A DNA stretch of 64,000 nt from Streptomyces sp. NBC_01445. GTDB lineage: Bacteria > Actinomycetota > Actinomycetes > Streptomycetales > Streptomycetaceae. The DNA lies in NCBI RefSeq assembly GCF_035918235.1, contig NZ_CP109485.1, forward strand, positions 2,046,001 to 2,110,000. Reading direction: 5' to 3'. The notes beneath the pieces are model-generated. The model made no database searches. It was not told the DNA's origin and saw only the letters and a list, made by a program, of their open reading frames with translations. A program made the translations under genes and the position numbers. The first letter of the stretch is position 1; the number at the start of each line of letters is the position of its first letter. Positions 3,883-19,948 of the stretch are shown piece after piece.

Positions 3883-3923
3883 TCTAGACAGGTCGGCTTC
3901 TTCATGTCTACCTTCTAGACATG
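3883..3923. promoter_or_regulatory. Candidate GntR autoregulatory operators
   Basis: Two dyads lie directly ahead of the GntR gene: the perfect palindrome GTCTAGAC (3883-3890), and the inverted repeat CATGTCTA-CCTTC-TAGACATG (3903-3910 and 3916-3923), which runs into the start ATG at 3921. Both share the TCTAGAC core typical of HutC/PhnF-type GntR operators. No Shine-Dalgarno sequence precedes the ATG, so the transcript may be leaderless with repressor binding over the start site. Confidence 0.6.
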
Positions 3924-4640: not shown

Positions 4641-5641
4641 CCGACACCTCCCAGTTCGACCGCGCCCTCGGGGCCTTCTACGGTCTCGCGCTCGGCGACG
4701 CCCTGGGCATGCCGACGCAGGTCATGTCGCGCGCCGACGTCGTCCGCGTCTACGGCACACTGCGCGGCTTCGAATCCGCGCAGCCCGACAACCCGGTCAG
4801 CGCAGGGATGCCCGCCGGGTCCGTCACCGACGACACGGACCAGGCAGTCATCGTGGCGCGGCTGCTCGTCGAGGGCGGCGGGCACGTCGACCCGCTGCGG
4901 TTCGCCGAGGAACTCCTCGCCTGGGAGAAGGAGATGAAGGCCAAGGGGTCGTTCGACCTGCTCGGCCCGTCGACAAAGGCGGCGCTCGACTCCGTGGCCC
5001 GCGGCACCGACCCCAAGGAGGCCGGGAAGTACGGCACCACGAACGGTGCCGCGATGCGGGTCACCCCGGTCGGCATCGCCTTCGCCTGCGCTCCCGACAC
5101 CGAGCGGTTCCTCGACCGGGTCGTCGAGTCCTGCCAGGTCACGCACGACACCACCGTCGGCATCGCGGGCGCGGCGGCGGTCGCGGCCGCGGTCTCCACC
5201 TGCGTCGCGGGTGGCAGCCTCGACGACGCCTTCGACGCCGCGATCAGCCTGTCTGCGGCCGGTGCCCGGCGCGGGCACTGGATCGCGGGCGCCAGCATCT
5301 CCGCGCGGATCGGCTGGGCGCGCGACCTGGTCGTCGGCCTCGACGAGGACGCGGCGCTCGACCGGATCGACGCGCTCATCGGCACCAGCGTCGCCAGCCA
5401 GGAGTCGGTGCCCGCCGCCTTCGCGGTGCTCGCGCTGGCCGACGGCGACCCGTGGCGCTCCGCGCTCCTCGCGGCGAATCTCGGCGGCGACAGCGACACG
5501 ATCGGCGCGATCGCGGGCGCGATCGCCGGTTCCGTGCACGGCTTCGCCGCCCTGCCCGCCACCGAGGTACGCACCCTGCACGAGGTCAACGACCTCGAAC
5601 TGGAGCCTCTGACACGCCAGTTGCTCACCCACCGCCCCTGA
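4637..5641 (+). CDS. ADP-ribosylglycohydrolase family protein
   Basis: The 334-residue product is a single all-helical ADP-ribosylglycohydrolase (DraG-like) domain. Metal-site motifs are visible: TDDTD at residues 64-68, GAAMRVTPVG in the middle, and GGDSDTIGA at about 283-291. The family hydrolyses N-glycosidic bonds to ADP-ribose or related ribosides using two divalent metals. The GTG start overlaps the upstream stop and has GGAGG six bases ahead. In this operon, with a permease and a PfkB kinase, the likely role is cleaving a riboside, not reversing protein ADP-ribosylation. Counterpart: E. coli YegU. Confidence 0.88.
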   Translation: MTDTSQFDRALGAFYGLALGDALGMPTQVMSRADVVRVYGTLRGFESAQPDNPVSAGMPAGSVTDDTDQAVIVARLLVEGGGHVDPLRFAEELLAWEKEMKAKGSFDLLGPSTKAALDSVARGTDPKEAGKYGTTNGAAMRVTPVGIAFACAPDTERFLDRVVESCQVTHDTTVGIAGAAAVAAAVSTCVAGGSLDDAFDAAISLSAAGARRGHWIAGASISARIGWARDLVVGLDEDAALDRIDALIGTSVASQESVPAAFAVLALADGDPWRSALLAANLGGDSDTIGAIAGAIAGSVHGFAALPATEVRTLHEVNDLELEPLTRQLLTHRP

Positions 5642-5695
5642 CACCCACCGCTCCACACACCCACCCCACCGACAGCCCAGCAAGGAGGTTCCGCG

Positions 5696-7186
5696 ATGGC
5701 CGCTTCAACGGAGAACGATCGCGTCGGCACCGTGGAGACCCGGGGGATCGAGCCGGTCCCCGACACCGAGCGGCACGGCCACGCCGGCCAGATGTTCTGG
5801 ACGTGGTTCGCCGCGAACATATCGATCCTCGGGCTGCCGCTCGGCGCGACGCTCGTCGCCTTCCGCGGCCTGAACATCTGGCAGGCCGCGCTCGTCGCGG
5901 TCGTCGGCTCGGTCGGATCGTTCACCCTGGTGGGCGCGCTCAGCCTGGCCGGCAAGAAGGGCGGGGCGCCGGCCCTGACGCTGTCGCGGGCCGTGTTCGG
6001 GCAGCGCGGCAACCACGGCCCCACGCTGGTGACGTGGCTGAGCCGGGTCGGCTGGGAGACGATCACGACGACCACAGCGGCGTACGCCCTCCTCGCTCTC
6101 CTCAACACCCTGTTCGGGGTGGGCAAGGGCACCGTCCTCACCCTGGTCTGTCTGCTGGTCTTCATCCTCTGCACGCTGCTGATCAGCGGCCTCGGGCATG
6201 CCACGATCATGTGGATCAACAAGTGGGCGACGGTGGCCTTCGGCGTTCTCAACCTCGTCGTCATGGGCTTCCTCGTCGCAACCGTCGACTGGCAGAAGGT
6301 GCTCGACGCACCGGCGGGCCGGGCCAGCGCGGTCGTCGCGGGTATCGGGTTCATCGCTTCGGGCACCGGCATCGGCTGGGCCAACGCCGGTGCGGACTAC
6401 GCCCGTTACCTGCCGCGATCGATCCCCGGCGGGCGTCTCGTGCGCGCCTCGGCCTTCGGCGCCGGCATCCCGCTCGTGCTGCTGATCTCGCTGGGCTCGC
6501 TGCTCACGGCCGGCGACCCGGCCCTCGCCACCTCCGCCGATCCGGTCGCCGCGATCAACGCGATGCTCCCGTCGTGGATGGCGGTGCCGTATCTGATCGC
6601 GGCGTTCGGCGGGCTGCTGATGTCCAATCACCTGTCCACGTACTCGGCCGGCCTGACGATGATCACGCTCGGTCTGCGGGTGCCGCGCGCCTGGGCGGTC
6701 TGCGTCGACATCGTGCTGATGTTCCTCGGCGGCATCTACTTCATGCTGATCGCCGATGACTTCTACGGTCCGTTCAGTACGTTCCTCACGCTGCTCGCCG
6801 TGCCGATCTCGGCGTGGATCGGGGTGATCGCCGTCGACATGCTGCGCGGACGGGAGTACGACCCGTCGGCGCTGATGAACACGGGTCGGGGCAGCCGGTA
6901 CTGGTATCGCGGTGGCTTCCATCTGCCCGCCGTCACCGCCTGGCTGGCGGCGATCGTGGCCGGGCTGCTGTTCACGACGGCCGCGACGAGCGCGGACGAC
7001 GTGTGGTTCAAGGGGCCGCTCGCCGACTCCTGGCTCGGAGTGAACGGGCTCGGCTGGCTCGTCGCCATCGTCGTGGGCGGCGCACTGTACGCGCTGCTCG
7101 GGCGTCGCTCGCCGGTGACCCTCACCACCCCTGCCACTGACTCCGCTGCCGCTGACTCCACCACCCTTGAGGAGGCCACCCGATGA
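5696..7186 (+). CDS. NCS1-family nucleobase/nucleoside permease (cytosine permease-like)
   Basis: The 496-residue integral membrane protein has about 12 hydrophobic segments beginning at residue 32, and belongs to the purine-cytosine permease (NCS1) family. Typical text includes FWTWFAANISILGLPLGA near the first helix and SGTGIGWANAGADYARYLP in the middle. NCS1 proteins import nucleobases, allantoin, hydantoins or nucleosides with H+ or Na+. AAGGAGG lies seven bases before the ATG. It overlaps the downstream kinase by ATGA. It plays the transporter role that the MFS protein YegT plays in E. coli. Confidence 0.9.
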   Translation: MAASTENDRVGTVETRGIEPVPDTERHGHAGQMFWTWFAANISILGLPLGATLVAFRGLNIWQAALVAVVGSVGSFTLVGALSLAGKKGGAPALTLSRAVFGQRGNHGPTLVTWLSRVGWETITTTTAAYALLALLNTLFGVGKGTVLTLVCLLVFILCTLLISGLGHATIMWINKWATVAFGVLNLVVMGFLVATVDWQKVLDAPAGRASAVVAGIGFIASGTGIGWANAGADYARYLPRSIPGGRLVRASAFGAGIPLVLLISLGSLLTAGDPALATSADPVAAINAMLPSWMAVPYLIAAFGGLLMSNHLSTYSAGLTMITLGLRVPRAWAVCVDIVLMFLGGIYFMLIADDFYGPFSTFLTLLAVPISAWIGVIAVDMLRGREYDPSALMNTGRGSRYWYRGGFHLPAVTAWLAAIVAGLLFTTAATSADDVWFKGPLADSWLGVNGLGWLVAIVVGGALYALLGRRSPVTLTTPATDSAAADSTTLEEATR

Positions 7187-8142
7187 CCGCCCGCTCCCGT
7201 GTCGTGCTCGCCGGAAACGTCATCGCCGACCTGGTCATCGAGGTGCCTGCCCTGCCCGAGCGCGGTGGCGATGTCATCGGTACGCGTACGGAGTTGTACG
7301 CGGGCGGCGGCTTCAACACGCTGACCGCCGCGCGCCGCCTCGGCGCCGAGGCCGTGTACGCGGGGCTGCACGGCAGCGGCCCCTACGGCGACCTCGTACG
7401 CTCCTCGCTCGCGGCCGAGGACATCGGCACGGTGCTCAGGGCGCGCACGGACGGCGACACCGGTTTCTGTGTGGCGCTGGTCGACGGCGGCGGCGAGCGT
7501 ACGTTCGTGACGAGTTTCGGGGTCGACGCACGGATGACCCCCGAGGAGGCGCGGACGATCGCCGGGTCGGTGCGCGGCGGCGACCTCCTGCAGGTCTCTG
7601 GGTACGGCCTGGTGATGGAGGTCAACGGGCCGCTCCTGGCCGAGGTGGTGACGGGCCTCGCGGACGACGTACGGGTCTGCTTCGACCCGGCGCCGCTGGT
7701 GGCGGACATCCCGGCCGCGGTGCTCGACCCGGTGCTCGCCCGCACCGACTGGCTGAGCTGCAATGCGCGGGAGGCCGAGCTGATGACCTCGCTGGCCGAT
7801 CCGCGCGCGGCGGCCGAGGTGCTGCGCGGGCGGCTGCGGGCCGGGGCCGGTGTGCTGGTGCGGGCCGACAAGGACGGCTGCTGGCTGGCCGCGCCGGACG
7901 GCGGTGATGCGGTGCACGTGCCCGGGTTCCCGGTGGACGCCGTGGACAGCAACGGGGCCGGGGACGCCCACGTCGGCGCGTTCCTGGCACTCCTTGGCCG
8001 CGGGGTTCCCGCTGACGAGGCGGCCCGGGGCGCGAACGCGGCGGCCGCTCTCGCGGTCACCCGGCGCGGGCCGGCGACCGGCCCGACGGCGACCGAACTC
8101 GCGGCGTTCCTCGACGCACGCGGCGTGCGGCTCGACGGGTGA
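7183..8142 (+). CDS. PfkB-family (ribokinase-like) carbohydrate/nucleoside kinase
   Basis: The 319-residue product has the PfkB fold. The N-terminal substrate signature GGGFNTLTAARRLGA lies near residue 45, and the C-terminal DSNGAGDAHVGAF motif contains the anion hole (258-260) and catalytic base D261. It phosphorylates a sugar or nucleoside hydroxyl with ATP in the cytoplasm. Translation is coupled to the permease (ATGA). Family members include ribokinase, inosine-guanosine kinase and pseudouridine kinase; the exact acceptor cannot be read from sequence. It is the counterpart of E. coli YegV. Confidence 0.9.
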   Translation: MTARSRVVLAGNVIADLVIEVPALPERGGDVIGTRTELYAGGGFNTLTAARRLGAEAVYAGLHGSGPYGDLVRSSLAAEDIGTVLRARTDGDTGFCVALVDGGGERTFVTSFGVDARMTPEEARTIAGSVRGGDLLQVSGYGLVMEVNGPLLAEVVTGLADDVRVCFDPAPLVADIPAAVLDPVLARTDWLSCNAREAELMTSLADPRAAAEVLRGRLRAGAGVLVRADKDGCWLAAPDGGDAVHVPGFPVDAVDSNGAGDAHVGAFLALLGRGVPADEAARGANAAAALAVTRRGPATGPTATELAAFLDARGVRLDG

Positions 8143-8542: not shown

Positions 8543-9313
8543 TCAGTGGGCGGCGAGTTCGGCGGAGCGTCCGCCGAGGAGACTTCCGGCTCCCGGCACG
8601 ATCGGAGGCAGACCGAGTTCCTGCAGGATGCGGTACGCCGTCGCCGTCGCGGCGGACAGCACCGGCAGCCCCGTCTCGTCCTCGACCGTCTGGATGGAGG
8701 CGAGGGACGGCATCTGCACGCAGGCCGAGAGCACCAGGGCGTCGGCCCGGCTCAGGTCGAGCCGGCGGTGGTGCTCGCGCAGATCCGCTGGGTGCAAACG
8801 GGCGACGGCCAGGTTGTCGGGGACTTCGAGGCTCAGGGCATCCACCACCTCGATCCCCGCGTCCTCGATATAGGCGACGACCTTGGCGGTGAGCGGCTTC
8901 ATGTACGGCGTGATGATCGCGACCCGCTGGGCGCCGAGCGCCTCGATGCCGCTGAGCAGTGCGCCCGCGCTGGAGACGACGGGGGCTTCGGCGCTCTCGG
9001 CCTGCAGGGCTGCGGTGATCTCTGCTTCGGCGGTGCAGTGATAGCCCGGTCCCTGGGCCATGATGGCGACCAGGCAGGCGGTGGCGACGACGTCGGGCCT
9101 GGCGTCGGCGAGCTCACTCGCGGCCCGCTCGGTCTGCGCGTTCATCCCCCGCAGTTCCTCGGGGGTGACGTGCTTCATCCGCATCCTGCTGCTGTGGAAC
9201 ACGAAGCGGTCGCCGGGCTCGACCGTCTCCCGGGCGTGGAGCATCCGGGGCAGTTCGGTCTCCATCGTCAGGTTGGAACTGGGCACGATGAGACCGATGT
9301 GATGGTCCGTCAT
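8543..9313 (-). CDS. nicE: Maleate cis-trans isomerase
   Basis: The 256-residue product belongs to the Asp/Glu racemase-like maleate isomerase family. It has the N-terminal GLIVPSSNLTMETELP signature and the two active-site cysteines, C80 in VATACLVAIM and C198 in VLSACVQMPS. It converts maleate to fumarate, the last step of aerobic nicotinate breakdown, feeding the TCA cycle. It is the 3'-most gene of the minus-strand nic operon, 62 bases beyond the MarR gene. The ATG follows GGAGGAC-type purines. Length and cysteine spacing match NicE/MaiA. Confidence 0.93.
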   Translation of the reverse strand: MTDHHIGLIVPSSNLTMETELPRMLHARETVEPGDRFVFHSSRMRMKHVTPEELRGMNAQTERAASELADARPDVVATACLVAIMAQGPGYHCTAEAEITAALQAESAEAPVVSSAGALLSGIEALGAQRVAIITPYMKPLTAKVVAYIEDAGIEVVDALSLEVPDNLAVARLHPADLREHHRRLDLSRADALVLSACVQMPSLASIQTVEDETGLPVLSAATATAYRILQELGLPPIVPGAGSLLGGRSAELAAH

Positions 9314-9375
9314 GGGTTGTCGTCCTCCGGTTGTGGCGGGGCGTTCACCTCCCCGCCCGGAGCACGGCGGACCGG

Positions 9376-9873
9376 CTATCGGGAGGGAGTCGGGTTCGGC
9401 CCCTCGGCCAGTCCCACCCAGTGATCGGCGAGGGACGTGAGCATGTGCAGATAGGTGGTGCGCTCGGTCTCGCTGAACGGCTCGAGGAGGAGCTTGTCCA
9501 GGGCCCGGGCGCGGCGTTCGGCCTCGCGGAGAACGTGTCCGCCGTCCTCAGTGAGGTAGAGCAGCTTGCGCCGCCCGTCGTCAGCTGCGGTCTGACGCGT
9601 GATCAGCCCACGGTTGTCGAGGCGCTTGGCGACGTCGGCCATCGTCGAGGTGTCAAGGGCTACCGCCGAGGCGAGGGAGCGCTGATCACGCCCGGGGTGT
9701 GCCTGGATCGTCTGGAGCACCGCGAACTGTGGTCCTGTGAGCACCGGGTCCACCTCCCTCAACCACACGGCGAGGTAGGCCTGGTAGAGGCGGCGAACCT
9801 GGTAGCCGGGGGCGGCGGTCAGCTCGGCGGGGGGCCTGGGGGTGGTCTCGGCAGCTGTGGTCTCATCAGGCAT
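9376..9873 (-). CDS. MarR-family regulator of the nicotinate operon (NicR-like)
   Basis: The 165-residue product has the MarR winged helix: LTGPQFAVLQTIQAHPGRDQ, then SLASAVALDTSTMADVAKRL and the wing DDGRRKLLYLTEDG. The chosen ATG overlaps the end of nicD (GACATGCCTGA). An upstream in-frame ATG would overlap nicD by a further 78 bases and adds low-complexity text. In Pseudomonas, the MarR-type NicR represses nic genes until 6-hydroxynicotinate binds. Location inside the operon supports the same role, with autoregulation. Confidence 0.85.
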   Translation of the reverse strand: MPDETTAAETTPRPPAELTAAPGYQVRRLYQAYLAVWLREVDPVLTGPQFAVLQTIQAHPGRDQRSLASAVALDTSTMADVAKRLDNRGLITRQTAADDGRRKLLYLTEDGGHVLREAERRARALDKLLLEPFSETERTTYLHMLTSLADHWVGLAEGPNPTPSR

Positions 9874-10753
9874 GTCCACACTTAACCACGGCGTCGGAGC
9901 CGGGTTCGCGGCCGGTGAGCATCCCGCGAAGGGCCGTGCGCAGTGCGGCAACTGCAGTCGTCGGCGCGTCCCAGAAGATCATGTGCCCGGCGTCGGGAAT
10001 CCGGTGTACAGAGGCGGCGGGGTTGGCCTCTGCGGCCTCAGCCGCGCCGGCGGACGTCACAACCGGGCTGTCCGCGCCGTGGAGCAGGGCGAGGGGGGCG
10101 GGCACCTGCGGCCACCAGGTGAAGAAGTCCTCGTTCTCGAAGCCGTGGTGAGTGCCCGTGACCGCTTCCCGTGTGCAGCTGGACAGCCAGCGCGCCCGCA
10201 GTTCCTGTTCGTGACGAGGCCAGGTGGGCCAATGGCCCGCGACCTCGTCGGCGTCGGTGCCGCGGTGGGCCTCGGCGAGCTGTCGGAGGAACGTGCAGAG
10301 GCTCGTCGGGTAGGCGTCTCGGCCGGGGCCGCTCATCGGCGGGTCGGCGAGGACGGCACCGCCCAGGGGAACCTTGGCCCGCACGGCGGTGACGGCCGCG
10401 ATGCGGGCGCCCATGGAGTGGCCGAACAGCAGCGGGTGTTCGAGACCGAGTCCGGTGATCAGGGCTTCGACGTCCTCGGCGTACGCCTCCAGGGTGTGTC
10501 CGGGGGCGTCGTCGGACAGACCGCGACCGCGCACGTCGAGGACCACCGGCCGGACCAGGTCGGTCAGTTCACGGGCGATGAAGTCCATGGTGATCGCGGG
10601 GCTGGTGATGCCGGGGAGGACGACGAGCGGGGGCAGGTCTCCCCCGTAGTCCAGCGCGTGCAGGCGTACGGAGCCGGACCAGATCCAGCGGCTGGTGGCG
10701 GGCACGTCGGCGAGGTCGGCGAGCGCGGATTGCAGGAGCGAGCGCTGTGTCAT
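9866..10753 (-). CDS. nicD: N-formylmaleamate deformylase, alpha/beta hydrolase
   Basis: The 295-residue alpha/beta-hydrolase has nucleophile S113 in GHSMGAR, acid D228 in LLHGADSP and base H257 in PDAGHMIFWD. It fits NicD, which removes formate from N-formylmaleamate to give maleamate. It is flanked by the maleamate amidohydrolase gene upstream and the regulator gene downstream, as expected for consecutive pathway steps. Assignment relies on fold plus context, because alpha/beta-hydrolases are functionally broad. Confidence 0.87.
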   Translation of the reverse strand: MTQRSLLQSALADLADVPATSRWIWSGSVRLHALDYGGDLPPLVVLPGITSPAITMDFIARELTDLVRPVVLDVRGRGLSDDAPGHTLEAYAEDVEALITGLGLEHPLLFGHSMGARIAAVTAVRAKVPLGGAVLADPPMSGPGRDAYPTSLCTFLRQLAEAHRGTDADEVAGHWPTWPRHEQELRARWLSSCTREAVTGTHHGFENEDFFTWWPQVPAPLALLHGADSPVVTSAGAAEAAEANPAASVHRIPDAGHMIFWDAPTTAVAALRTALRGMLTGREPGSDAVVKCGHA

Positions 10754-10802
10754 GGGGTTCGTCCTCAAGAGCTCAGGGATGGTCGCGCCGGAGAGCAGGC
10801 AG

Positions 10803-11477
10803 TCAGGGCGCAGGCAATCGGGATGTAGGCGGGGAGGCGAGGTAGCCGACTGCATCGTCGAGGCCGATGACGTCTCCGTACTTCGCCTGGATGTCGAAGA
10901 GCGCCGCCTGCGCGGGGCCGTCGGCCCGGTCGCCGACGCAGTCGCGCGGCACCAGGACCGGGAAGCCGGACTGGACCGCGTCCACCGCAGTGGCCCGAAC
11001 ACAGCCGCTCGTCGTCGCGCCGCACACGAGGACGGTGTCGCAGCCGAGGCCGGTCAAGGTGGCGGCGAGGCCGGTACCGAAGAAGGCGGAGGCGCCCTTC
11101 TTGACGACGAGGTGGTCCTGTCCGGGCTGCCAGGGCAATCGCGGGTCAAGGGCCACGGCATCGCTGCCGTCCACCAGGGAGCGCATCCCCGGTGCCTTGC
11201 GAAGCCACGTGACCGAGTCGGCGGCTGCTTCTGCCCGGGTGTAGGAGATGGCGGTGAAGACGACCGGGACGTCGGCGGGGCGGCCGGCCTCGATGAGTCG
11301 CGTGGTCGACTTGACCACGTCGGTGAGGTCGCTGCCCGTGGCGTACCCGTCCTCGGTGAAGCCGCGGGTGAGGTCGACGACCAGAATCACGGGACGATTG
11401 CCGCGTCGGACCGGTGCCCCGAACCCGGCCTGCTCGTAGGTGTCGTCGGTCGTACGGCCGTAGAGCCCGCTGCTCAT
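10803..11477 (-). CDS. nicF: Maleamate amidohydrolase, isochorismatase-like cysteine hydrolase
   Basis: The 224-residue product is an isochorismatase-like hydrolase with the catalytic triad visible: D35 in LVVDLTRGF, a Lys at 126-127 in VVKKGASAFFGT, and C159 in GATTSGCVRATAVDA. NicF deaminates maleamate to maleate plus ammonia. It overlaps the CoxG-like gene by ATGA, so translation is coupled to the hydroxylase genes. The TSGCVRATAVDAVQ text is close to maleamate and N-carbamoylsarcosine amidohydrolases; the cluster decides for maleamate. Confidence 0.9.
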   Translation of the reverse strand: MSSGLYGRTTDDTYEQAGFGAPVRRGNRPVILVVDLTRGFTEDGYATGSDLTDVVKSTTRLIEAGRPADVPVVFTAISYTRAEAAADSVTWLRKAPGMRSLVDGSDAVALDPRLPWQPGQDHLVVKKGASAFFGTGLAATLTGLGCDTVLVCGATTSGCVRATAVDAVQSGFPVLVPRDCVGDRADGPAQAALFDIQAKYGDVIGLDDAVGYLASPPTSRLPAP

Positions 11478-12148
11478 GCGGGCCTCCGGAGGTCGCGCAG
11501 CTGAGCGGACTGGGCCTTCAGCTTGCCTAGGAGCCAACCCTGGACGAGGCCGGCCGCGAAGGCGGCGGCGACCGGTCCGTACTTGTTCAGCAGCGGTCCG
11601 GCGACCAGGGACAGGCCGTCGAGTTCCGCGGGGGCGGGCGCAGAAACCGACGGAGTGACAGCAGGCTGCGCGGCGCTGGAGGATGCTGCCTCGCTTACGG
11701 CCGCGGGGGCGACCAGCAGGTTTCCCAGGTTCAGCGCGAACTGCTCCAGGATGCGCCCGGACACGGCGGCGATGGCGCCCTTGCCGAACTGGGCGATCTT
11801 CCCGCGGATGACCAGGTCGGTGTCGAGGTTGAGCTGTGCGCCACCGGGTGCTGCTGTCACCTCCAGGGCGACCTCGGCCTCGGCGTCGCCGCTGCCGTGG
11901 GTGTCGGCGCCAGTGGCGTGGACTCGCAGCCGTCGCCTGTCGCTGTCGACCTCCAGGAAGCGGACGGTCCCGGCGTAGGCGGCGGTGATCGGTCCCACCT
12001 TCACCTTGACCGCGCCACGCCACGCGTCGCCGTCCTGGCCTTCCAGGGCGGCACCGGGCATGCACGAGGCGACCCGCTGAACGTCGCTGATGAGGGCGAA
12101 CACCTCGTCGGGCGCAGCCTTCACCGCAACGGTGTTGGTCAGTTGCAT
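11474..12148 (-). CDS. CoxG-like SRPBCC protein, molybdenum hydroxylase accessory
   Basis: The 224-residue product has an N-terminal SRPBCC/CoxG domain (residues 1-150, APDEVFALISDVQRVASCMP early). A linker rich in Ala, Ser and Pro follows, then a hydrophobic C-terminus (AAFAAGLVQGWLLGKL) that could anchor it to the membrane. CoxG proteins accompany CO-dehydrogenase-like hydroxylases and are thought to help membrane recruitment or assembly. It starts ten bases inside the end of the [2Fe-2S] subunit gene, so the three hydroxylase subunits and CoxG are produced together. Confidence 0.85.
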   Translation of the reverse strand: MQLTNTVAVKAAPDEVFALISDVQRVASCMPGAALEGQDGDAWRGAVKVKVGPITAAYAGTVRFLEVDSDRRRLRVHATGADTHGSGDAEAEVALEVTAAPGGAQLNLDTDLVIRGKIAQFGKGAIAAVSGRILEQFALNLGNLLVAPAAVSEAASSSAAQPAVTPSVSAPAPAELDGLSLVAGPLLNKYGPVAAAFAAGLVQGWLLGKLKAQSAQLRDLRRPA

Positions 12149-12675
12149 CCTGTCGTCTCCTTGCGGCCCTGGGCGCACGCGGTGCGGCGGGCGGTCGCGC
12201 AGGCGTCGATGGCCTCGACAATGGTCTGGTAGCCGGTGCACCGGCAGAGGTTGGCGGCGACCACGTCTCTGATCTCTTCCTTGGTCGCCTCGGGGCGTTC
12301 GGTGAGGAACCCTTCGGCGAGCATCAGGAAGCCGGGGGTGCAGAACCCGCACTGCAGGGCGTGGTGGTCCCGGAATGCCTCTTGCAGGTCTGCGAGTTCG
12401 CCGCCACTGCCTCCCAGCGACTCCACGGTCCGGATCTCGGCACCTTCCGCCTGGGCCGCGAACATCAGGCAGGCGCGGGCGGGCCGGCCGTCGACCAGGA
12501 CGGTGCAGGCCCCGCAGATGCCGTGCTCGCAGCCCACGTGCGTGCCGGTGAGGTGCAGGTCGTGGCGGAGTACGTCGACGAGGGTGCGCCGGGACTCGGT
12601 GATCACCTCGTGGCGTTCGCCGTTGATGTCGAGGGTGAGCAGTTGCAGGTCCTGCGTGCTGCTGGGGTTGGTCAT
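12139..12675 (-). CDS. Molybdenum hydroxylase small subunit, two [2Fe-2S] clusters
   Basis: The 178-residue product has an N-terminal plant-type [2Fe-2S] domain with GCEHGICGACTVLVDGRPARAC, and a C-terminal helical [2Fe-2S] domain with QCGFCTPGFL and NLCRCTGYQTI. This is the electron-transfer subunit of xanthine dehydrogenase-type hydroxylases, passing electrons from the Mo site to FAD. It overlaps the large-subunit gene at ATGA and is followed by the CoxG-like gene. In context it belongs to the enzyme hydroxylating nicotinate at C6. Confidence 0.92.
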   Translation of the reverse strand: MTNPSSTQDLQLLTLDINGERHEVITESRRTLVDVLRHDLHLTGTHVGCEHGICGACTVLVDGRPARACLMFAAQAEGAEIRTVESLGGSGGELADLQEAFRDHHALQCGFCTPGFLMLAEGFLTERPEATKEEIRDVVAANLCRCTGYQTIVEAIDACATARRTACAQGRKETTGCN

Positions 12676-15041
12676 GCGGGGAGCTCCTGGTGGTTCAGGG
12701 CGCGGTGGACGGTCCGGGGTGTGATGGGGGTGTTGTCGAGCTCCACGCCGGTGGGACGCAGGGCGTCGTTGACCGCGTTGAGTACGGCGGCAGGGGCGCC
12801 GATGGTGCCGCCTTCGCCTGCCCCCTTGGCCCCGGTCTCGGTGAAGGCGCAGGGCGTTTCGAGGTGGCGGATCAGGACGTCGGGGATCTCGTGGGCGGTG
12901 GGCACCTTGTAGTCCATGAAGCCGGTCGCCGACGGTTCGCCCTGGGTGTCGTACGTGATCTGTTCGAAGAGGGCGCCGGCGATGCCCTGGGCGATGCCGC
13001 CGCGGCACTGTCCCTCGACGACTTGGGGGTTGATGGCGACGCCGCAGTCCTCGACACACACGTAGCGCAGGATCTCCACCTGTCCGGTGCCCTGGTGGAG
13101 TTCGACGACGACGCCGTGGGTGGCGTTGGAGAAGGTTCCGTCGTTGAGGACGTCAAAGGTGGCTGTCGCGCTCAGGCCGGGTTCGATGTCCTTGGGCAGC
13201 AGGTGTGCCTTCAGGTAGGCGATGTCGGCGAGTTCCTCGTAGGACAGGAAGTCCGCCTCCGGGCCGCGGCGCCTGGCTCCCCCGCCGGTCAGCTCGACAT
13301 CGCCGGGATCGGTGTTCCAGCGGGCGGCCGCGATGTGGCGCAGTTTGTCGCCGAGGCGCCCGGCGGCGATCCGCACCGCGCTGCCGCCGATGGCGATGGA
13401 GCGGCTGGCGAAGGTGCCCCAGCCGTAGGTGATGCGGTCGGTGTCGCCCTGGTGGAGTTTGACCTTGGCGAGGTCTAGGCCGAGTTCGTCGGCGACGATC
13501 TGAGCCATGGTCGTCTCGTGGCTCTGTCCGTGGCTGAGGGTGCCGGTGGTCACGGTGACGGCTCCGGTGGTGTCCATGCGGACCTCGGAGATGTCGAAGC
13601 CGGGCACGATCTGCATCTTGCGCTGGGCGAAGGCGGCGGAGCCGTAGCCGGTACGTTCGCTGAAACAGGAGTAGCCGATGCCGATGTGACGGCCGTGCTG
13701 TGCCGTCTCGGCCTGCTTCTCGTACCAGCCTTCGTCCCTGAGCTGTTGCTCGCACAGGTTGAGGGATTCCAGGTAGGAGCCCGGGTCGTAGGTGATGTTG
13801 TTGACGCCGGTGTACGGGAATTCGGTGATCACGTTGCGGCGCCTCACCTCGACCGGGTCCAGGCCGAGTTCGCGGGCGGCGCGCTCGAAGAGACGCTCGA
13901 CGACCATGACGTACTGCGGGCGGCTCACTCCGCGGTACGGGCCGGTGGGCGCCTTGTTCGTGGTGATAGCGCGGCCGCGTACCCGGTAGGCGGGGACCCG
14001 GTAGACGCCGGGCATCTCGGCGGAGGCCATGAGCGGCTCGATGCCGGCGGTGAACGGGTAGCAGGAGTATGCGCCCATGTCGCACACCACGTCGGCGTCG
14101 AGGGCCAGGATGTGGCCTTCGGCATCGAAGGCCGCGCGTGCCCTGTAGTGCTGTTCTCGGGCGAGGAAGGAAGCGGTCAGCGCGTCCTTGCGGTCCTCGA
14201 TCCACTTCACGGGGCGGCGCAGGCGCAGTGCGGCGGCCGCTGCCGCGATCTCTTCGCGGCCCACCACGCACTTCTGCCCGAAGCCGCCGCCCATGTCGGG
14301 GACGATGACCCGCACCGCCCGCTCGTCCAGGCGCAGACTGCGTGCGGCCACCGTCCTTACCTGGTGCGGTACTTGGGTGCAGGTGTGGACGACGAGCTGT
14401 TCCTCGCGCTCGTCCCAGTGCGCGACGACGCCGCGGGTCTCCAGAGGGAGGGCGTTCTGCCGGCCGGTGCGGGTCTCGACATCCACGACGCGGTATGCGC
14501 CGGCGAAGATGTCGTCGATGCCCTCCGTGGCGAAGAGCGACACATCGACGAGGGTGTTGTGCGCCGCCTCCTCGTGCAGGCGGGGCGCGTCCGGAGCCAG
14601 CGCGTCCTCCTCGCAGGTGACGGGCGCGAGTGTGGAGTAGCTGACCTTGGCGGCCTCCAGGCCGTCCTCGGCCGCGTAGGGGTCGCGCGCCACGACCACG
14701 GCGACGGGTTCGCCGACGTAACGGACGCGGTCGCGGGCGAGGATCGGCATCGCGGTCGGCACGTACTCGCTCAGTGGGCGCGCCAACTCGGCAACAATGT
14801 CGCCCAGTTGCAGGTCATCGGCGGTGAAGGCGGCCACCACGCCGGGAACTTGTCGTACGGCGGACAGATCCACGGACACGATCTCGCCGTGGGCGACGGT
14901 GCTGCGCACGAACTGGGCGTGGAGCATGCCGGGCAGTGCGATGTCGTCCACGAAGCGTCCGCGCCCGGTCAGCAGCCGGGGGTCTTCGCGCCGAGGGACT
15001 GAACGCCCCACCAACTGACGGGAGTTCGGTGTCGAGCTCAT
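12672..15041 (-). CDS. Molybdenum hydroxylase large subunit, probable nicotinate 6-hydroxylase
   Basis: The 789-residue product has the two-part aldehyde oxidase/xanthine dehydrogenase fold. Visible motifs are VGRSVPRREDPRLLTGRGRF at the N-terminus, DMGGGFGQK at the first cofactor loop, GPYRGVSRPQYVMVVERLFE, and the C-terminal GAGEGGTIGAP with the catalytic Glu. It binds molybdopterin cytosine dinucleotide and hydroxylates the substrate with water-derived oxygen. The start is set by the overlap with the FAD subunit gene (ATGA). It lacks the AYxCSFR loop of true CO dehydrogenases. Nicotinate specificity is inferred from neighbouring nicC and nicX. Confidence 0.9.
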   Translation of the reverse strand: MSSTPNSRQLVGRSVPRREDPRLLTGRGRFVDDIALPGMLHAQFVRSTVAHGEIVSVDLSAVRQVPGVVAAFTADDLQLGDIVAELARPLSEYVPTAMPILARDRVRYVGEPVAVVVARDPYAAEDGLEAAKVSYSTLAPVTCEEDALAPDAPRLHEEAAHNTLVDVSLFATEGIDDIFAGAYRVVDVETRTGRQNALPLETRGVVAHWDEREEQLVVHTCTQVPHQVRTVAARSLRLDERAVRVIVPDMGGGFGQKCVVGREEIAAAAAALRLRRPVKWIEDRKDALTASFLAREQHYRARAAFDAEGHILALDADVVCDMGAYSCYPFTAGIEPLMASAEMPGVYRVPAYRVRGRAITTNKAPTGPYRGVSRPQYVMVVERLFERAARELGLDPVEVRRRNVITEFPYTGVNNITYDPGSYLESLNLCEQQLRDEGWYEKQAETAQHGRHIGIGYSCFSERTGYGSAAFAQRKMQIVPGFDISEVRMDTTGAVTVTTGTLSHGQSHETTMAQIVADELGLDLAKVKLHQGDTDRITYGWGTFASRSIAIGGSAVRIAAGRLGDKLRHIAAARWNTDPGDVELTGGGARRRGPEADFLSYEELADIAYLKAHLLPKDIEPGLSATATFDVLNDGTFSNATHGVVVELHQGTGQVEILRYVCVEDCGVAINPQVVEGQCRGGIAQGIAGALFEQITYDTQGEPSATGFMDYKVPTAHEIPDVLIRHLETPCAFTETGAKGAGEGGTIGAPAAVLNAVNDALRPTGVELDNTPITPRTVHRALNHQELPA

Positions 15042-15874
15042 GCGGTGATGGCCTCCTCGCAGGCGCGCTGTACAAGGGTGCGGACAAGGCTCTTGCGGTA
15101 GGCGGTGTCTTCGGGCGGGTCGACGGCTGCGGCCGCTGCCGCGGCACAGTCGGCGAACGAGCCGCCCGCGGCCAGGACTTCCTCGGCCTCCGGTACGCGG
15201 ACGACGGCGGCTGCGACACCACCGAGCCCGACCCGGCCCCCGCGCACCGTCCCGTCGACCATGTCCAGGTCCACGGCAGCGGCGACCAGGGCGAAGTCTC
15301 CTCGTCGTTCGGCGAATTCGGTGAGCGCCGCGTGGGGTGCGGGGCGCGGGAAGACGACTTCTACGAGGAGTTCGTCCGGTGCCAGATCGCTGGTGTAGTA
15401 GCCGTGGAAGAAGTCCGAGGCGGGGACGGTGCGCTCGCCACGAGGACCTCGGACCACGAACTGGGCGCGCAGCACCACCGCGAGCAGGCACCACTCGGCG
15501 GTGGCGTCGGCGTGCGCGAGGCTTCCGCCGACCGTGCCGCGGGTCCTGATGGGCAGGTGTCCCACCCACTCCATGGCCCGGCTCAGCACGGCGAAGTCCC
15601 GCCCGAGCACTCCCTGCGGATCACGCTCCACGGTGTGGTGCGTGGTGAGCGCCCCGATACGCAGGGCGCCGGTGGAGTCACGCTCCATCCGGTCGAGTTC
15701 CCGCAGGCGCGCGATGTCGACCAGATGGCGCGGGCGCGCCAGTCGGTAGTTCATCATCGCGACGAGACTCTGTCCGCCGGCGACCACCTTGGCGTCGTCA
15801 CCGAGGTCGGCGAGCAGACGGAGTGCGCCGTCGACATCTCGCGCCCGGTGGTAGGCGAACGGGGCGGGCTTCAT
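15038..15874 (-). CDS. Molybdenum hydroxylase FAD-binding subunit
   Basis: The 278-residue product is a CoxM/CutM-type FAD subunit with the FAD motifs VVAGGQSLVAMMNYRLARP near residue 33 and TRGTVGGSLAHADATAEW near 110, plus a C-terminal CO_deh_flav_C domain. It passes electrons from the iron-sulfur subunit to an acceptor. The presence of this subunit distinguishes the enzyme from Pseudomonas NicAB, which has no FAD subunit and uses cytochromes. It is the first of the coupled hydroxylase genes and lies about 44 bases downstream of the transporter gene. Confidence 0.92.
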   Translation of the reverse strand: MKPAPFAYHRARDVDGALRLLADLGDDAKVVAGGQSLVAMMNYRLARPRHLVDIARLRELDRMERDSTGALRIGALTTHHTVERDPQGVLGRDFAVLSRAMEWVGHLPIRTRGTVGGSLAHADATAEWCLLAVVLRAQFVVRGPRGERTVPASDFFHGYYTSDLAPDELLVEVVFPRPAPHAALTEFAERRGDFALVAAAVDLDMVDGTVRGGRVGLGGVAAAVVRVPEAEEVLAAGGSFADCAAAAAAAVDPPEDTAYRKSLVRTLVQRACEEAITA

Positions 15875-15918
15875 CGGATTCCTCCGGTCTGGGTACGTAT
15901 CGGGGGCCCTGCGGCAGG

Positions 15919-17310
15919 TCAGGTTGCGGCGGCTTCCGGCACGGCACGGGTCTCCGGCGCCGGTTCGTCGGAGGCGTCCAGGACCGCTCCCTTGGTCTCG
16001 GGTGCGGCGATCGCCATCCAGACCACGGCGGCCAGCACCGCCGCCCCGAGCACCGCGAAGGTGACGGGCAGCCCCAGCAGCGGCCACATGACCGAGCCGA
16101 AGAGCAGCGGGGCGAATCCGGTCAGCGTGCGGCTGACCGATGAGGCCCAGCCGAAGCCGCTGGCCCGCAGATGGGTGGGGTAGAGCTCGGCGGCGTAGGC
16201 GTACAGGGCGGGGATGGCCAGTTGGGCGAGCAGGCCGAAAACGGCGATGGCGACAACGGACGGCGTCGCCATGTGCCGCACCACCGCGAAGGCGACCAGG
16301 GCTGCGGCGGCGAGCGGCGCCGAGACACCGATCAGCCACTTGCGGCCGACGATGTCGACGAGGGCAGTGGAGAGCAGGACACCGGCGATACCTACGGCGC
16401 TCATGATCGTGGTGCTCATGAAGGCGGCGGTGTCGCCCTGACCTTCCTCCTTGAGGATGGACGGCATCCAGCTGAGGGCCGCGTAGTACACCAGCATGAT
16501 CGTCGCGAAGAGCAGCCAGGCCACCGACGTGATGCGCGGATCGAACCGCCAGATACCGACGAGCTGTTGCACGGCGGCGGCGACGCCGCGCGGGCCGGTC
16601 TCCTGCTGCGGTGCGGGGATGCTGTAGGGCTCGACTGGTGCTCCCGTGCGGGCCACCAGGTCGTCGATGACCTCTCTGGCCTCCGCCTCGCGGCCCTTCT
16701 TGGTGAGGTAGACGGGCGACTCCGGGATGCCGCGACGCACCCAGAACAGCAGGAGCGCGGGCAACACCATCGTGGCGAGCATCCACCGCCAGTCCCCCGC
16801 CACCCCGACGAAGCCGGTGGCCACCAGACCGCACAGGGTGACGCCGATCGGCCACCACAGGTCGAGCGCGGTGAGGACCCGGCCCCGGTACTTGCGTGGC
16901 GAGAACTCGCCCACCAGCGCGTAGTCGACGGGAATGCAGCCGCCGAGTCCGACGCCCGCGAGGAAGCGCAGGAGCAGGAAGACGGAGTAGACCGGAGCGA
17001 GGGCGCCGAGGGCCGAGAACAAGGCGAAGATCAGCAGCGTGACGCTGAATGCTTGCTTGCGTCCGATCCGGTCGGCGACTGCTCCCCAGACGACGGCGCC
17101 GACGGCCATGCCGACCAGGTTCGCGGTCGCGACCAGACCGCGCTCGGCGAGGGTGAGATCGAAGTGGTCGCCGAGCAGTGGCATGAGGAAGCCGTTGAGG
17201 GCGATGTCGTAGGCATCGAAGAGGTAGCCGAGGCCGCCGATGATGAAGATTCTTCCCTGGACCGACCATCTCCAGGGCAGGTCCTGCACGATCTGATCGC
17301 CTGTTTTCAC
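15919..17310 (-). CDS. MFS transporter, aromatic acid:H+ symporter type, probable nicotinate importer
   Basis: The 463-residue product has 12 predicted membrane helices. The AAHS-type features are GYLFDAYDIALNGFLMPLLG in helix 1 and the loop DRIGRKQ after helix 2. AAHS members take up benzoate-like acids, and NicT of Pseudomonas belongs to the MFS as well. Its position between nicC and the hydroxylase genes supports nicotinate or 6-hydroxynicotinate uptake. The ATG lies 93 bases after the nicC stop. Confidence 0.86.
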   Translation of the reverse strand: MKTGDQIVQDLPWRWSVQGRIFIIGGLGYLFDAYDIALNGFLMPLLGDHFDLTLAERGLVATANLVGMAVGAVVWGAVADRIGRKQAFSVTLLIFALFSALGALAPVYSVFLLLRFLAGVGLGGCIPVDYALVGEFSPRKYRGRVLTALDLWWPIGVTLCGLVATGFVGVAGDWRWMLATMVLPALLLFWVRRGIPESPVYLTKKGREAEAREVIDDLVARTGAPVEPYSIPAPQQETGPRGVAAAVQQLVGIWRFDPRITSVAWLLFATIMLVYYAALSWMPSILKEEGQGDTAAFMSTTIMSAVGIAGVLLSTALVDIVGRKWLIGVSAPLAAAALVAFAVVRHMATPSVVAIAVFGLLAQLAIPALYAYAAELYPTHLRASGFGWASSVSRTLTGFAPLLFGSVMWPLLGLPVTFAVLGAAVLAAVVWMAIAAPETKGAVLDASDEPAPETRAVPEAAAT

Positions 17311-17403
17311 GTTCGCTCCATAGGGGGCGTCGGGGACGGTGAGTGGGCGGTGCGGGTGCGGCTCAGCGGTTGTGGTGGGACGGATTCGGTCGGCCGCCGG
17401 CGG

Positions 17404-18675
17404 TCAGCGCGCGAACGGGTAGGTGATCGCCTCCAGGTCAGGGTCGTTGAGGGGTGTCCCGCCCCAGAGCCACTGGTAGGAGACGTCCGACTCGCCGTCG
17501 AAGGAACGCCCCAACTCGGCGTCCCTGGACTGCTGCAGAGGGCCGTCGGGGAAGTGGTAGAAGGTCTTGTTCCGCAGCGACGCGTCCTGGACCATCCCGG
17601 CGTGCTTGGCGCGGCGGTCGGTGTAGCGGCGCAGGGCTCCCGCAATGTCGTCGGCGTTGACCCTGCCCAGCTCCTCGGCGAGGACGGCGGCGTCCTCCAT
17701 CGCCTGCGAGGCACCCTGCGCCTGGTAGGGCAGCATGGCGTGGCAGGCGTCGCCGAGCAGCGACAGGTGACCATCGGTCCAGACCGGGTCGCGACGCCTC
17801 CGGTAGAGGGCGAAGCAGGAGACGTCCTCCTTCGCCTTGGACAGCATCGCGGCGACGCGGTCGTCCCAGCCGGGGAAGGCGTCCACGAGCGCGTCGGCGT
17901 CGGAGGAGACGGTCCACTTCTCGGCGACCTCGTCGGTGCACGGGACGCAGGCCACGATGTTCAGGTACTCGCCGCCTCGGATCATGTAGTGGACGAGGTG
18001 GCGGTCGGGGCCGTACCAGATGGTGCTCTGGAAGCGGTCGACGAGGAAGCGGGTGGCCGGGTCTGCGGCGATGAGGTCGCCGGGGATCAACGCCCGGAAT
18101 GCCATCTCGCCCGAGAACTCAAGGGTGTCGGGCAGCCCCATGAGGTCACGGACCCGTGAACGTATGCCATCGGCGCCGATCACGACGTCACCCTCGAAGC
18201 GCCGGTCGTCTTCGGTGATGGCCGCCGGACGGCGCGGGTTGCTCCGGTCCAAGCCGTCCACGCGGCTGTCGGTGTGCAGTTCGACGACGGGTCCGGGGCC
18301 GTTCGGGTCCACGCAGGCGTCCAGGATGACGCGGTGCAGATCGGCACGGTGGTAGTGCCAGTACGGGGCGTTGAATTCCCGCTTGCAGCGCTCGCCGAGC
18401 TGGGTGAGCCCGACGACGCTGCCGTCCTTCCACCTGCGCCGCACCTGATCCTGAGGCTCGGTGTGGATGGCTTCGAGCTGCTTGCGCAGGCCGAGGCCGA
18501 GCAGGACGCGACTGGCGTTGGGGGCCGTCTGGATGCCCGCCCCGATCTCGCCGAACTGTGCCGCCTGTTCCAGAACGGTGACCCTGATGCCTCGGTGCCG
18601 CAAGGCCAGTGCTGCGGTGACCCCGCCGAGTCCGCCACCGGCGATGACGACTTCGAACGATTGGGAAGGTGCCAT
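17404..18675 (-). CDS. nicC: 6-hydroxynicotinate 3-monooxygenase, FAD-dependent
   Basis: The 423-residue group A flavin monooxygenase has VIAGGGLGGVTAALALRHRG for FAD ADP binding, the mid-protein VVIGADGIRSRVRD (DG motif) and GDACHAMLPYQAQGASQAME (GD motif). The NicC-like segment YWHYHRADLHRVI is also present. It decarboxylates and hydroxylates 6-hydroxynicotinate to 2,5-dihydroxypyridine with NADH and O2. It is somewhat longer at the C-terminus than Pseudomonas NicC. It sits next to nicX, which uses its product. Confidence 0.9.
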   Translation of the reverse strand: MAPSQSFEVVIAGGGLGGVTAALALRHRGIRVTVLEQAAQFGEIGAGIQTAPNASRVLLGLGLRKQLEAIHTEPQDQVRRRWKDGSVVGLTQLGERCKREFNAPYWHYHRADLHRVILDACVDPNGPGPVVELHTDSRVDGLDRSNPRRPAAITEDDRRFEGDVVIGADGIRSRVRDLMGLPDTLEFSGEMAFRALIPGDLIAADPATRFLVDRFQSTIWYGPDRHLVHYMIRGGEYLNIVACVPCTDEVAEKWTVSSDADALVDAFPGWDDRVAAMLSKAKEDVSCFALYRRRRDPVWTDGHLSLLGDACHAMLPYQAQGASQAMEDAAVLAEELGRVNADDIAGALRRYTDRRAKHAGMVQDASLRNKTFYHFPDGPLQQSRDAELGRSFDGESDVSYQWLWGGTPLNDPDLEAITYPFAR

Positions 18676-18731
18676 GAGTTCTCCAGACGAGGGATGCGGC
18701 GCGTGGTGGCGGGGCGGACCTGGGCGGGGTG

Positions 18732-19763
18732 TCAGGCTTCGACGAGCCGTCCGGCGGTGACGACGTCCGTGCTGTCGACGGAGACGGTGCAGCCCCGCAT
18801 GGCGACGTCGATGTGGGCGTACGACTCACGGCCGAGTACCGGGTGAGGGCCGGTGGACCACAGGAAGTTGCCGGCGAAGGCCCGGGCGTCCATGCCCATC
18901 AGCTCTTCCTTGCCGTATAGGGCTGTGGCGAACCAGTCGGCGGTCTTCATGAGGCCCCAGCCCATGTGGGAAAGGCTGCGAGCCCACTGGTCGTCGGCGT
19001 CCTCGAAGTAGGTGTTGAGCAGCTGTGCCTCGGCGCCGCCGGACACCTTCTCGATGTTGCCACCGGCGATCTCCAGCGTGACCGGCCGGCGCACGTACTC
19101 CTTGAACGGCAGGAGGATGTCGCCCTCCGTCAGCACGATCCGGCCGTCGGAAAGCTGCGGCCAGCACAGCACCATGGTGCTCGGCCAGTGGTCCCAGCGG
19201 CCCGGGTCGTCGGCAAAGCCCACCTGGAACTCCGGCTTGGAGCCTGGCAGTTCGACGGTGAGATCGGTGCCTGCCTCGGACGTCACCCGCATCAGCGAGG
19301 CGGACTTGAGCAGCTCGACGCCCTTGAGCACGCGGACCTTGTCGTCCTCCTTCGGCAGGTTGCGAATGAGGACGTCCGGGGCGTCACAGACGAAGATGAT
19401 GCGCGTGCCTGCGCGCAGGATCTCCTGCTGGAGGGGCGCGTGGATGAAGCCCTCACGGGTCAGATCGACGACCAGGTCGGCAGCCTTGAGCATCTCCTGG
19501 GCGGTGGTGTCGTTCAGCACCGAGGTCAGCCCCGGACCCGCGCCGGTGCGAGTGCTGTCGGCGGGGGCCGGGTTGCCGCCGGGCACGGTGGCGGAGATGA
19601 CGTGGGCGTCGCAGGCCTTCGCCGCTCCGAAGGCCGCCGCGATGTAGTCGCCGCGACTCGTCGGCTCGGACAGGACGACCACATGCTCCCCCGGCTGGAG
19701 CTTGCACAGCCTGAGTTCACGGGTGAACGCGTCGAGCAGGTCTACGGATGCGAGATCGTGCAT
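18732..19763 (-). CDS. nicX: 2,5-dihydroxypyridine 5,6-dioxygenase
   Basis: The 343-residue product fits NicX, an Fe(II) dioxygenase built on an aminopeptidase M29-like fold. Probable iron ligands are visible: the His of SLSHMGWGL and the H317-x-D319 pair in YAHIDVAMRG, matching the His/His/Asp set of NicX. It opens 2,5-dihydroxypyridine to N-formylmaleamate. The chosen ATG has GGAGC seven bases ahead; a longer upstream frame has no ribosome site. It is the promoter-proximal gene of the nic operon. Confidence 0.92.
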   Translation of the reverse strand: MHDLASVDLLDAFTRELRLCKLQPGEHVVVLSEPTSRGDYIAAAFGAAKACDAHVISATVPGGNPAPADSTRTGAGPGLTSVLNDTTAQEMLKAADLVVDLTREGFIHAPLQQEILRAGTRIIFVCDAPDVLIRNLPKEDDKVRVLKGVELLKSASLMRVTSEAGTDLTVELPGSKPEFQVGFADDPGRWDHWPSTMVLCWPQLSDGRIVLTEGDILLPFKEYVRRPVTLEIAGGNIEKVSGGAEAQLLNTYFEDADDQWARSLSHMGWGLMKTADWFATALYGKEELMGMDARAFAGNFLWSTGPHPVLGRESYAHIDVAMRGCTVSVDSTDVVTAGRLVEA

Positions 19764-19889: not shown

Positions 19890-19948
19890 CGGAATTAATC
19901 CGAACACGTACTATCTCTGCCTGGCAAGAGGCCGTCATGAAATTATGA
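19890..19948. promoter_or_regulatory. Candidate nic operon promoter and operator
   Basis: This AT-richer island upstream of nicX holds two dyads: CGGAATTAATCCG (19890-19902), with CGGA/TCCG arms, and TCATGAAATTATGA (19935-19948), with TCAT/ATGA arms. A minus-strand -35-like TTGCCA (19927-19922) lies between them, which would put the -10 over the first dyad. MarR proteins often cover such sites. Assignment is by inspection only. Confidence 0.4.

Follow-up and report, generated by a model that had tools for sequence, protein, structure and literature searches.

A predicted operon for nicotinate catabolism in Streptomyces sp. NBC_01445, with a candidate new class of molybdenum hydroxylase

The 64,000-nucleotide stretch of the Streptomyces sp. 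NBC_01445 genome analysed here (hereafter the window) carries 11 tightly packed genes on its minus strand (8543-19763; host genome 11.47 Mb), which raises the question of whether they make up a full gene set for the degradation of nicotinate, or vitamin B3. The original prediction, made from the letters alone, had proposed a complete candidate route from nicotinate to fumarate in one minus-strand operon. All of the genes that it named were found there by frames, domains and homology (Table 1), and the route is supported. No intergenic gap in the operon exceeds 93 bases and several neighbouring genes share a few bases, which makes a single transcript likely. On the evidence given below, we consider it probable (about 0.86) that the operon encodes the full set from nicotinate to fumarate and would let the strain import nicotinate as a carbon and nitrogen source.

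In the proposed route, the transporter would import nicotinate and a three-subunit molybdenum (Mo) hydroxylase (large, medium and small subunits L, M and S) would place a water-derived oxygen on C6 to give 6-hydroxynicotinate, the electrons passing through flavin adenine dinucleotide (FAD) to the (mena)quinone pool with a CoxG-like helper as membrane link. A NicC-like flavin monooxygenase would convert 6-hydroxynicotinate to 2,5-dihydroxypyridine by decarboxylative hydroxylation, NicX would cleave the ring to N-formylmaleamate, and NicD, NicF and NicE would yield maleamate, maleate and fumarate in turn. A MarR-family protein, probably sensing an intermediate, would repress from an element located before nicX.

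The lower steps are supported by matches to the solved enzymes 7cn3, 4l0c, 4l07 and 4fq7. No Pfam family was found for NicX in the domain scan; its single match in the PDB was 7cn3, a 2,5-dihydroxypyridine 5,6-dioxygenase, and it shares 42% identity with the NicX of a Pseudomonas-type cluster. H266 and H317-x-D319 of NicX align with residues 265, 318 and 320 of 7cn3, which presumably bind iron. NicD matched the deformylase 4l0c best (155 bits versus 61 for the next structure), and its G-H-S-M/L-G motif was present in 49 of 50 aligned rows, the Ser being absent in one. For NicF, the best structure was 4l07 (198 bits), followed by N-carbamoylsarcosine amidohydrolase (182 bits); the Asp, Lys and Cys motifs were present in 51/51 rows. 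It is a putative maleamate amidohydrolase, 4l07 being a maleamate amidase. The structures matched by NicE were the maleate isomerases 4fq7 and 2xec, and C80 and C198 were kept in all 23 full-length rows. The operon encodes a ring-cleaving dioxygenase of the NicX type, as in the aerobic nic pathway, together with NicD, NicF and NicE homologues that retain their catalytic residues.

The hydroxylase belongs, by its domains (MoCoBD on L, FAD_binding_5 on M, Fer2/Fer2_2 on S), to the three-subunit branch of the xanthine dehydrogenase family. It would carry FAD, two [2Fe-2S] clusters and Mo and is accompanied by a CoxG-like helper gene, as had been described. The eight Cys of S lie at positions 49, 54, 57, 69, 109, 112, 144 and 146, in the patterns commonest among its homologues. 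In L, the motif KG[AV]GEGG, whose Glu is the catalytic one, was found in 68/68 rows, some of which come from one genome. An Arg at the position of Arg880 of xanthine dehydrogenase, present in the patterns listed, was considered as a carboxylate binder and dropped, an Arg being present there in two outgroup rows as well. That the substrate is nicotinate and the position C6 we infer, as the original prediction too had marked for the substrate.

The original prediction had proposed that L be compared with characterised hydroxylases. Among PDB entries, L scored best with quinoline 2-oxidoreductase (552 bits), followed by a CoxL (460 bits) and 6-hydroxypseudooxynicotine dehydrogenase (400 bits); the first two would fit a quinoline- or carbon monoxide (CO) dehydrogenase-like enzyme that is merely co-located and has no role in the pathway. 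A tree of the large subunit (24 rows) showed that the actinobacterial sequences form one clade of their own (support 100/100), outside of which CoxL, Kdh and the xanthine-dehydrogenase-like paralogues fall, and no grouping with an aldehyde or purine oxidase, which the original prediction had named as a refutation, was found. Quinoline 2-oxidoreductase (Qor), the nicotine dehydrogenase NdhC and a Thermomicrobium sequence form another group (98/90), apart from the actinobacterial clade. The active-site loop also differs: L has PYRGVSR in the window and in every pattern listed (45 of 68 rows), whereas 1n5w has AYRCSFR, and the loop AYxCSFR is presumably defining for form I CO dehydrogenase. Furthermore, 12 of 12 Streptomyces genomes with an L orthologue carry both NicX and NicC, and the element found before nicX also precedes a separate hydroxylase operon in one locus (L015; loci and genomes are cited by our L and G numbers). 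An enzyme without a role in the pathway is therefore very improbable, and we retain the assignment of L to the nicotinate route.

The sister group of the actinobacterial clade consists of Azospirillum sequences (94/92, not starred), although deep placements in this tree are unsure because several branches are long. In Azospirillum TSH58, a distance of about 15 kb separates the sister L gene from genes for a monooxygenase, an Asp/Glu racemase (NicE), an alpha/beta hydrolase (NicD), a 2,5-dihydroxypyridine dioxygenase and an isochorismatase-family protein (NicF). Among plasmids, one record (Embleya) is 80% identical to L and the next 42.5%.

The CoxG-like protein has a weakly hydrophobic, Ala-rich C-terminal segment (residues 192-210; 19-residue hydropathy 1.28), and hydropathy above 1.2 was found within the last 80 residues in 55/56 of its homologues. 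According to excerpts of two sources, growth of Oligotropha on CO is slow in coxG mutants (PMC4240915) and CoxG is thought to tether CO dehydrogenase to the membrane, with electrons passing to quinone (PMC4240915, PMC13240472). By analogy, quinone is our best guess for the electron acceptor of the hydroxylase. An XdhC-like maturation gene follows the hydroxylase genes in L049, L052 (18065-19315), L053, L055 and L057, and the window's genome has an XdhC-like gene close to a different Mo enzyme (L086).

The distribution of the gene set was surveyed in two ways. A search of genome contigs with NicX as bait gave 78 loci, all with NicX by construction, of which 66 cover 9 kb or more counted from nicX; gene presence was scored at ≥40% identity. 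The result showed that NicC, M, L, S and CoxG were all present in 58 of the 66 loci. Forty-six of these 58 also have NicF and NicD, 11 have neither and one (L028) stops at a contig edge; the gene order of the window is retained in 36 of the 46. The nic gene set recurs in many actinobacterial genera, and the closest named locus by NicX is that of Streptomyces sp. CB01635 (99%). In 246 Streptomyces genomes, a sample not chosen for nic genes, an L orthologue was present in 12 (≥77% identity; next best 43%), NicX in 13 (≥79%) and NicC in 14 (≥71%). The overlaps of L with NicX and NicC have p values of 1.7e-19 and 1.2e-18, in which kinship is ignored. Because the set recurs in many genera and co-occurs in genomes that were not chosen for it, its association goes beyond chance. 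One of the genomes (G092) has NicC at 72% and NicX only at 42% and 38%.

The monooxygenase was compared with PDB entries and with Pseudomonas putida NicC (PpNicC). The highest scores were obtained with the decarboxylative vanillate 1-hydroxylase 8x38 (256 bits), 8r2t (252 bits; no function named) and the 4-hydroxybenzoate enzyme 8gsm (239 bits), versus 214 bits for tropone 2-monooxygenase and 169 bits for PpNicC. At the positions of PpNicC His211 and Tyr215, His and Tyr were found in 79/79 distinct homologues; these are substrate-binding residues of NicC according to excerpts of PMC9304392. In a tree of monooxygenases, in which the deeper order of groups carries no claim, the actinobacterial and the Pseudomonas-type NicC sequences fell into separate clades (100/99 and 98/100). 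Forcing the two together gave a p value of 0.0415 in the approximately unbiased test (p-AU), a weak result of a test set post hoc, after the tree had been seen. By its sequence, the nicC-like gene lies outside the Pseudomonas NicC lineage, a point that the original prediction had missed, and calling its product 'NicC' by similarity conceals a different lineage. A Rhodococcus opacus gene labelled '6-hydroxynicotinate 3-monooxygenase' (L121:2980-4128) lies beside hydroxyquinol dioxygenase and maleylacetate reductase genes, and its label looks doubtful.

Several results weigh against nicotinate as the substrate of this operon. The best scores of the monooxygenase were with enzymes that act on benzenoid acids, and at the positions of PpNicC His47 and His302 it has Gln and Tyr, as do 79/79 distinct homologues; 8x38 and 8gsm, at 36-39% identity, share both residues. 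Natural Pseudomonas-type NicC proteins (L115-L117) have His at both positions; of the two PpNicC structures, 5eow has His at 47, whereas 8uiq has Gln there and is evidently a variant. The best-scoring characterised relative of L acts on quinoline, and L gave only 137 and 98 bits with the two Mo subunits of the Eubacterium barkeri nicotinate dehydrogenase. An L orthologue is missing for two loci with nicX-nicC-nicF-nicD, L019 and L016 (the latter from what seems to be the genome G130, in 780 contigs), and also from the genomes of L064 and L066, whose NicX (63-67%) and NicC (45-49%) are more distant. The transporter is missing in six otherwise complete loci (L038, L042, L044, L047, L056, L074). 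Moreover, no NCBIfam equivalog cut-off was reached by ten of the operon proteins among the matches listed (for the monooxygenase, the best 25 of 69) or by the transporter among the best 25 of its 50 matches, where TIGR00895 came first with 242 bits, under its cut-off of 418.55. The gene names used here are therefore based on context and on likeness to enzymes of solved structure. The Gln at position 47 does not argue against activity on 6-hydroxynicotinate, because the fungal HxnX also has Gln there and retains the His/Tyr pair, and 2,5-dihydroxypyridine no longer accumulates when HxnX is deleted (PMC9304392, in excerpts).

These results leave room for other pyridines. The operon could degrade a different compound whose route ends in 2,5-dihydroxypyridine, such as 3-succinoylpyridine or a nicotinate derivative, with the Mo enzyme acting on that compound; the route through Spm, the 3-succinoylpyridine monooxygenase of Pseudomonas putida S16, reportedly feeds the same lower pathway, and 4fq7, 4l07 and 4l0c are enzymes of S16. 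Spm is a Mo hydroxylase with the same cofactor set (PMC4548258, in excerpts), and enzymes of the NicX type, such as HpdF, serve in 2-hydroxypyridine breakdown too (excerpts of PMC7356986). However, the transporter of the window resembles aromatic-acid symporters and the monooxygenase scores best with decarboxylative hydroxylases. As none of the 11 genes comes from a family known to act on a succinyl side chain either, a pyridine other than nicotinate appears unlikely. A picolinate pathway through 6-hydroxypicolinate and 3,6-dihydroxypicolinate is less likely still: it too uses a Mo hydroxylase and leads to 2,5-dihydroxypyridine, but needs a separate decarboxylase, a family that the domain scans did not find among the 11 genes, and the monooxygenase resembles enzymes that couple hydroxylation with decarboxylation. 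Nicotinate remains the most probable substrate.

How the predicted operon relates to known nicotinate systems was examined next to the Pseudomonas putida KT2440-type nic cluster, represented by the plasmid relatives L116 (Azospirillum ramasamyi), L117 (Pantoea At-9b) and, in part, L115 (Pseudomonas BYT-5). The two systems share the NicX, NicD, NicE and NicF types, a MarR and an MFS gene, and the same route past 6-hydroxynicotinate. The first two enzymes differ. The Mo subunit of L116 has another domain order with three cytochrome c stretches and is 25% identical to L of the window over 416 residues, and no FAD subunit is annotated beside the Mo subunit in L116 or L117, whereas the window has an FAD subunit; the contrast to NicAB drawn in the original prediction is borne out, the window hydroxylase being of another kind than a Mo subunit with cytochrome c domains and no FAD subunit. 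The monooxygenases differ in the residues at 47 and 302 given above. In a Caballeronia plasmid cluster (L123:10724-17767), the order is MFS-TetR-monooxygenase-NicE-NicD-NicX-NicF, and the 28 kb seen include no annotated hydroxylase.

The nicotinate dehydrogenases of Bacillus niacini and E. barkeri consist of FeS, flavin and Mo subunits, as in the window. The former has three subunits (20/34/85 kDa) and the latter four, both with flavin subunits (PMC10331938, in excerpts), and the presence of FAD, presented earlier as the distinguishing feature, is therefore not the novelty. The Mo subunit of E. barkeri is split and far from L in sequence. The B. niacini cluster includes nicF- and nicE-like genes (PMC4256190), and this organism also has a 6-hydroxynicotinate dehydrogenase; its likeness to the window is taken from published description, as is the likeness of HxnX, which brings genetic support for the 6-hydroxynicotinate step, to the window monooxygenase. 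Quinoline 2-oxidoreductase (1t3q) and NdhC (L111) have the L/M/S architecture of the window with other substrates. Both hydroxylate next to the ring nitrogen. Likewise, 8x38 and 8gsm share Gln 47 and Tyr 302 with the window monooxygenase but act on benzenoid substrates. According to excerpts of the literature, the recognised Mo nicotinate hydroxylases fall into at least three classes (PMC5746545) and such enzymes evolved several times independently (PMC9304392); the section on sources in a 2023 review of nicotinate dehydrogenases, as excerpted, names Proteobacteria, Bacillus and Clostridium as sources and leaves Actinobacteria unnamed (PMC10331938). A literature search found no actinobacterial nicotinate operon among the titles listed, which is weak evidence of absence as subscription papers were mostly outside its coverage. 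Judged by sequence, the window hydroxylase is a candidate for a fourth class next to those of Pseudomonas, Eubacterium and Bacillus (Bacillus by description only). What looks new lies in where the first two enzymes come from, in the element that recurs and in the exchange of the lower half, and the locus gives Actinobacteria a concrete predicted nicotinate operon open to testing.

The conserved element was traced from 10-mers common to the sequences upstream of nicX. Its 16-bp core lies inside a longer consensus, taken from other strains, that forms an imperfect palindrome; a scan for perfect palindromes upstream of nicX found nothing in common (25 of 64 sequences listed). Of the 78 loci, 52 have the element 125-256 bp before nicX and two others have it farther away, at 365 and 377 bp; it was absent from ten listed loci (L052, L057, L058, L060, L062, L064, L065, L066, L070, L071). 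In the host genome, the core had one exact match and three matches with two mismatches; at ≤3 mismatches there were 53 matches versus 32 in a backward control, which is little excess. The window has a single site at ≤2 mismatches and none before nicE, and about 0.01 match per 20 kb would be expected by base counts at two mismatches (equal base frequencies). Second copies occur in several other loci: 136 bp before MFS-M-L-S in L015, where the operon is split; before nicE in L013 and L043; after marR, in the same place, in L024 and L034, which end before nicE would appear; and, in nine loci (L002, L006-L012, L072), 331-337 bp before nicX on the opposite strand, where L002 alone shows a frame downstream. 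We propose that the MarR protein binds this element, which could serve to map the regulon. A copy also lies at the 5′ end of a divergent gene for a VanA-type Rieske oxygenase in L016 (4471-5679) and L019 (8451-9998, minus strand); this oxygenase, beside a nicX-nicC operon without an L orthologue, may form 6-hydroxynicotinate from another precursor.

The 11 loci with neither NicF nor NicD (L048-L055, L057, L060, L069; nine Rhodococcus, one Nocardia and one Gordonia) retain the upper half of the pathway. In these loci, genes for a CN-hydrolase, a Flavin_Reduct protein and a second CN-hydrolase stand before nicX (L052:7259-10023), and the first CN-hydrolase scored 499.5 and 475.8 in the two members scanned, above the NCBIfam formamidase cut-off of 406. 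Relatives of parts of this set occur near NicX homologues in L064, L065, L066, L068, L070 and L071. In the 11 genomes, NicD gave one weak partial match only, NicE-like proteins were found elsewhere in four at 54-58% and weakly in two more, and NicF-like proteins at ≥41% in four. These clusters hint at a possible formamide-releasing lower branch: a split of N-formylmaleamate into maleate and formamide would account for the formamidase. It would not account for the flavin-reductase-fold protein. The argument from formamidase is weakened by the frequency of such genes in Rhodococcus, 9 of 10 strains in one table having them; for its strains the same survey, as excerpted, lists formamidases and a maleamate amidohydrolase, a 6-hydroxynicotinate 3-monooxygenase not being among the enzymes reported (PMC10005059). 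Reduction to succinamate, considered as another lower half, was dropped after one of the hydrolases scored as a formamidase.

Tentatively, and with somewhat less than even odds, Actinobacteria may have built their nicotinate route from swappable modules: a separately recruited hydroxylase of a fourth class coupled by CoxG to quinone, a decarboxylative monooxygenase of another lineage, and either NicD-NicF-NicE or an undescribed formamide-releasing lower half. In Rhodococcus, Nocardia and Gordonia, one CN-hydrolase would then split N-formylmaleamate into maleate and formamide, the formamidase would break down the formamide, and the flavin-reductase-fold protein would replace NicE.

The features of the operon are listed in Table 1. 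A filter on GC content at third codon positions (GC3), applied to mechanical frames, passed 7 of the 11 genes. NicF, CoxG, S and M failed because their longest frames reach far upstream into neighbouring genes, and these four were called from domains and homology.

Table 1. Genes of the predicted nicotinate operon and the conserved element before nicX (window coordinates)
Feature	Position	Strand	Basis
nicX, 2,5-dihydroxypyridine 5,6-dioxygenase (ring cleavage to N-formylmaleamate)	18732..19763	-	sole PDB match 7cn3, 1e-72
nicC-like FAD monooxygenase, putative 6-hydroxynicotinate 3-monooxygenase (decarboxylating)	17404..18675	-	FAD_binding_3; scores for 8x38 and 8gsm above that for PpNicC
MFS transporter, aromatic acid:H+ symporter-like, probable nicotinate uptake	15919..17310	-	MFS_1
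M, medium (FAD) subunit of Mo hydroxylase	15038..15874	-	FAD_binding_5 1e-43, CO_deh_flav_C
L, large (Mo) subunit, putative nicotinate 6-hydroxylase	12672..15041	-	MoCoBD_1/2 with Ald_Xan_dh_C
S, small subunit, two [2Fe-2S]	12139..12675	-	Fer2 and Fer2_2, eight Cys
CoxG-like SRPBCC protein, probable membrane/quinone link of hydroxylase	11474..12148	-	PF06240 (COXG) 2.6e-14
nicF, putative maleamate amidohydrolase	10803..11477	-	isochorismatase 7e-35; best PDB 4l07
nicD, N-formylmaleamate deformylase	9866..10753	-	alpha/beta hydrolase; best PDB 4l0c 'Deformylase'
MarR-family regulator, probable operon repressor	9376..9873	-	PF01047 5e-11
nicE, maleate cis-trans isomerase	8543..9313	-	Amdase/Asp-Glu racemase; best PDB 4fq7, 2e-75
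16-bp core of conserved operator/promoter-like element	19896..19911	-	148 bp before nicX start

Tail to tail with the nic operon, the window carries plus-strand genes (3921-8142) for a GntR regulator, an ADP-ribosylglycohydrolase-family protein, an NCS1-type permease and a ribokinase-like PfkB protein, which perhaps form a module for salvage of nicotinate nucleoside; a literature search on such salvage gave nothing on these flanking genes among the matches listed. In Rhodococcus (L049, L052-L055), homologues with this gene order are found 4-8 kb before nicX, and the Pantoea nic cluster is followed by genes for an ADP-ribosylglycohydrolase and a nucleoside permease. Among the Streptomyces genomes, an ADP-ribosylglycohydrolase was found in 7 of the 12 L carriers versus 10 of the 234 others, near L in G000 and G161 only and elsewhere in the genome in the other five carriers.

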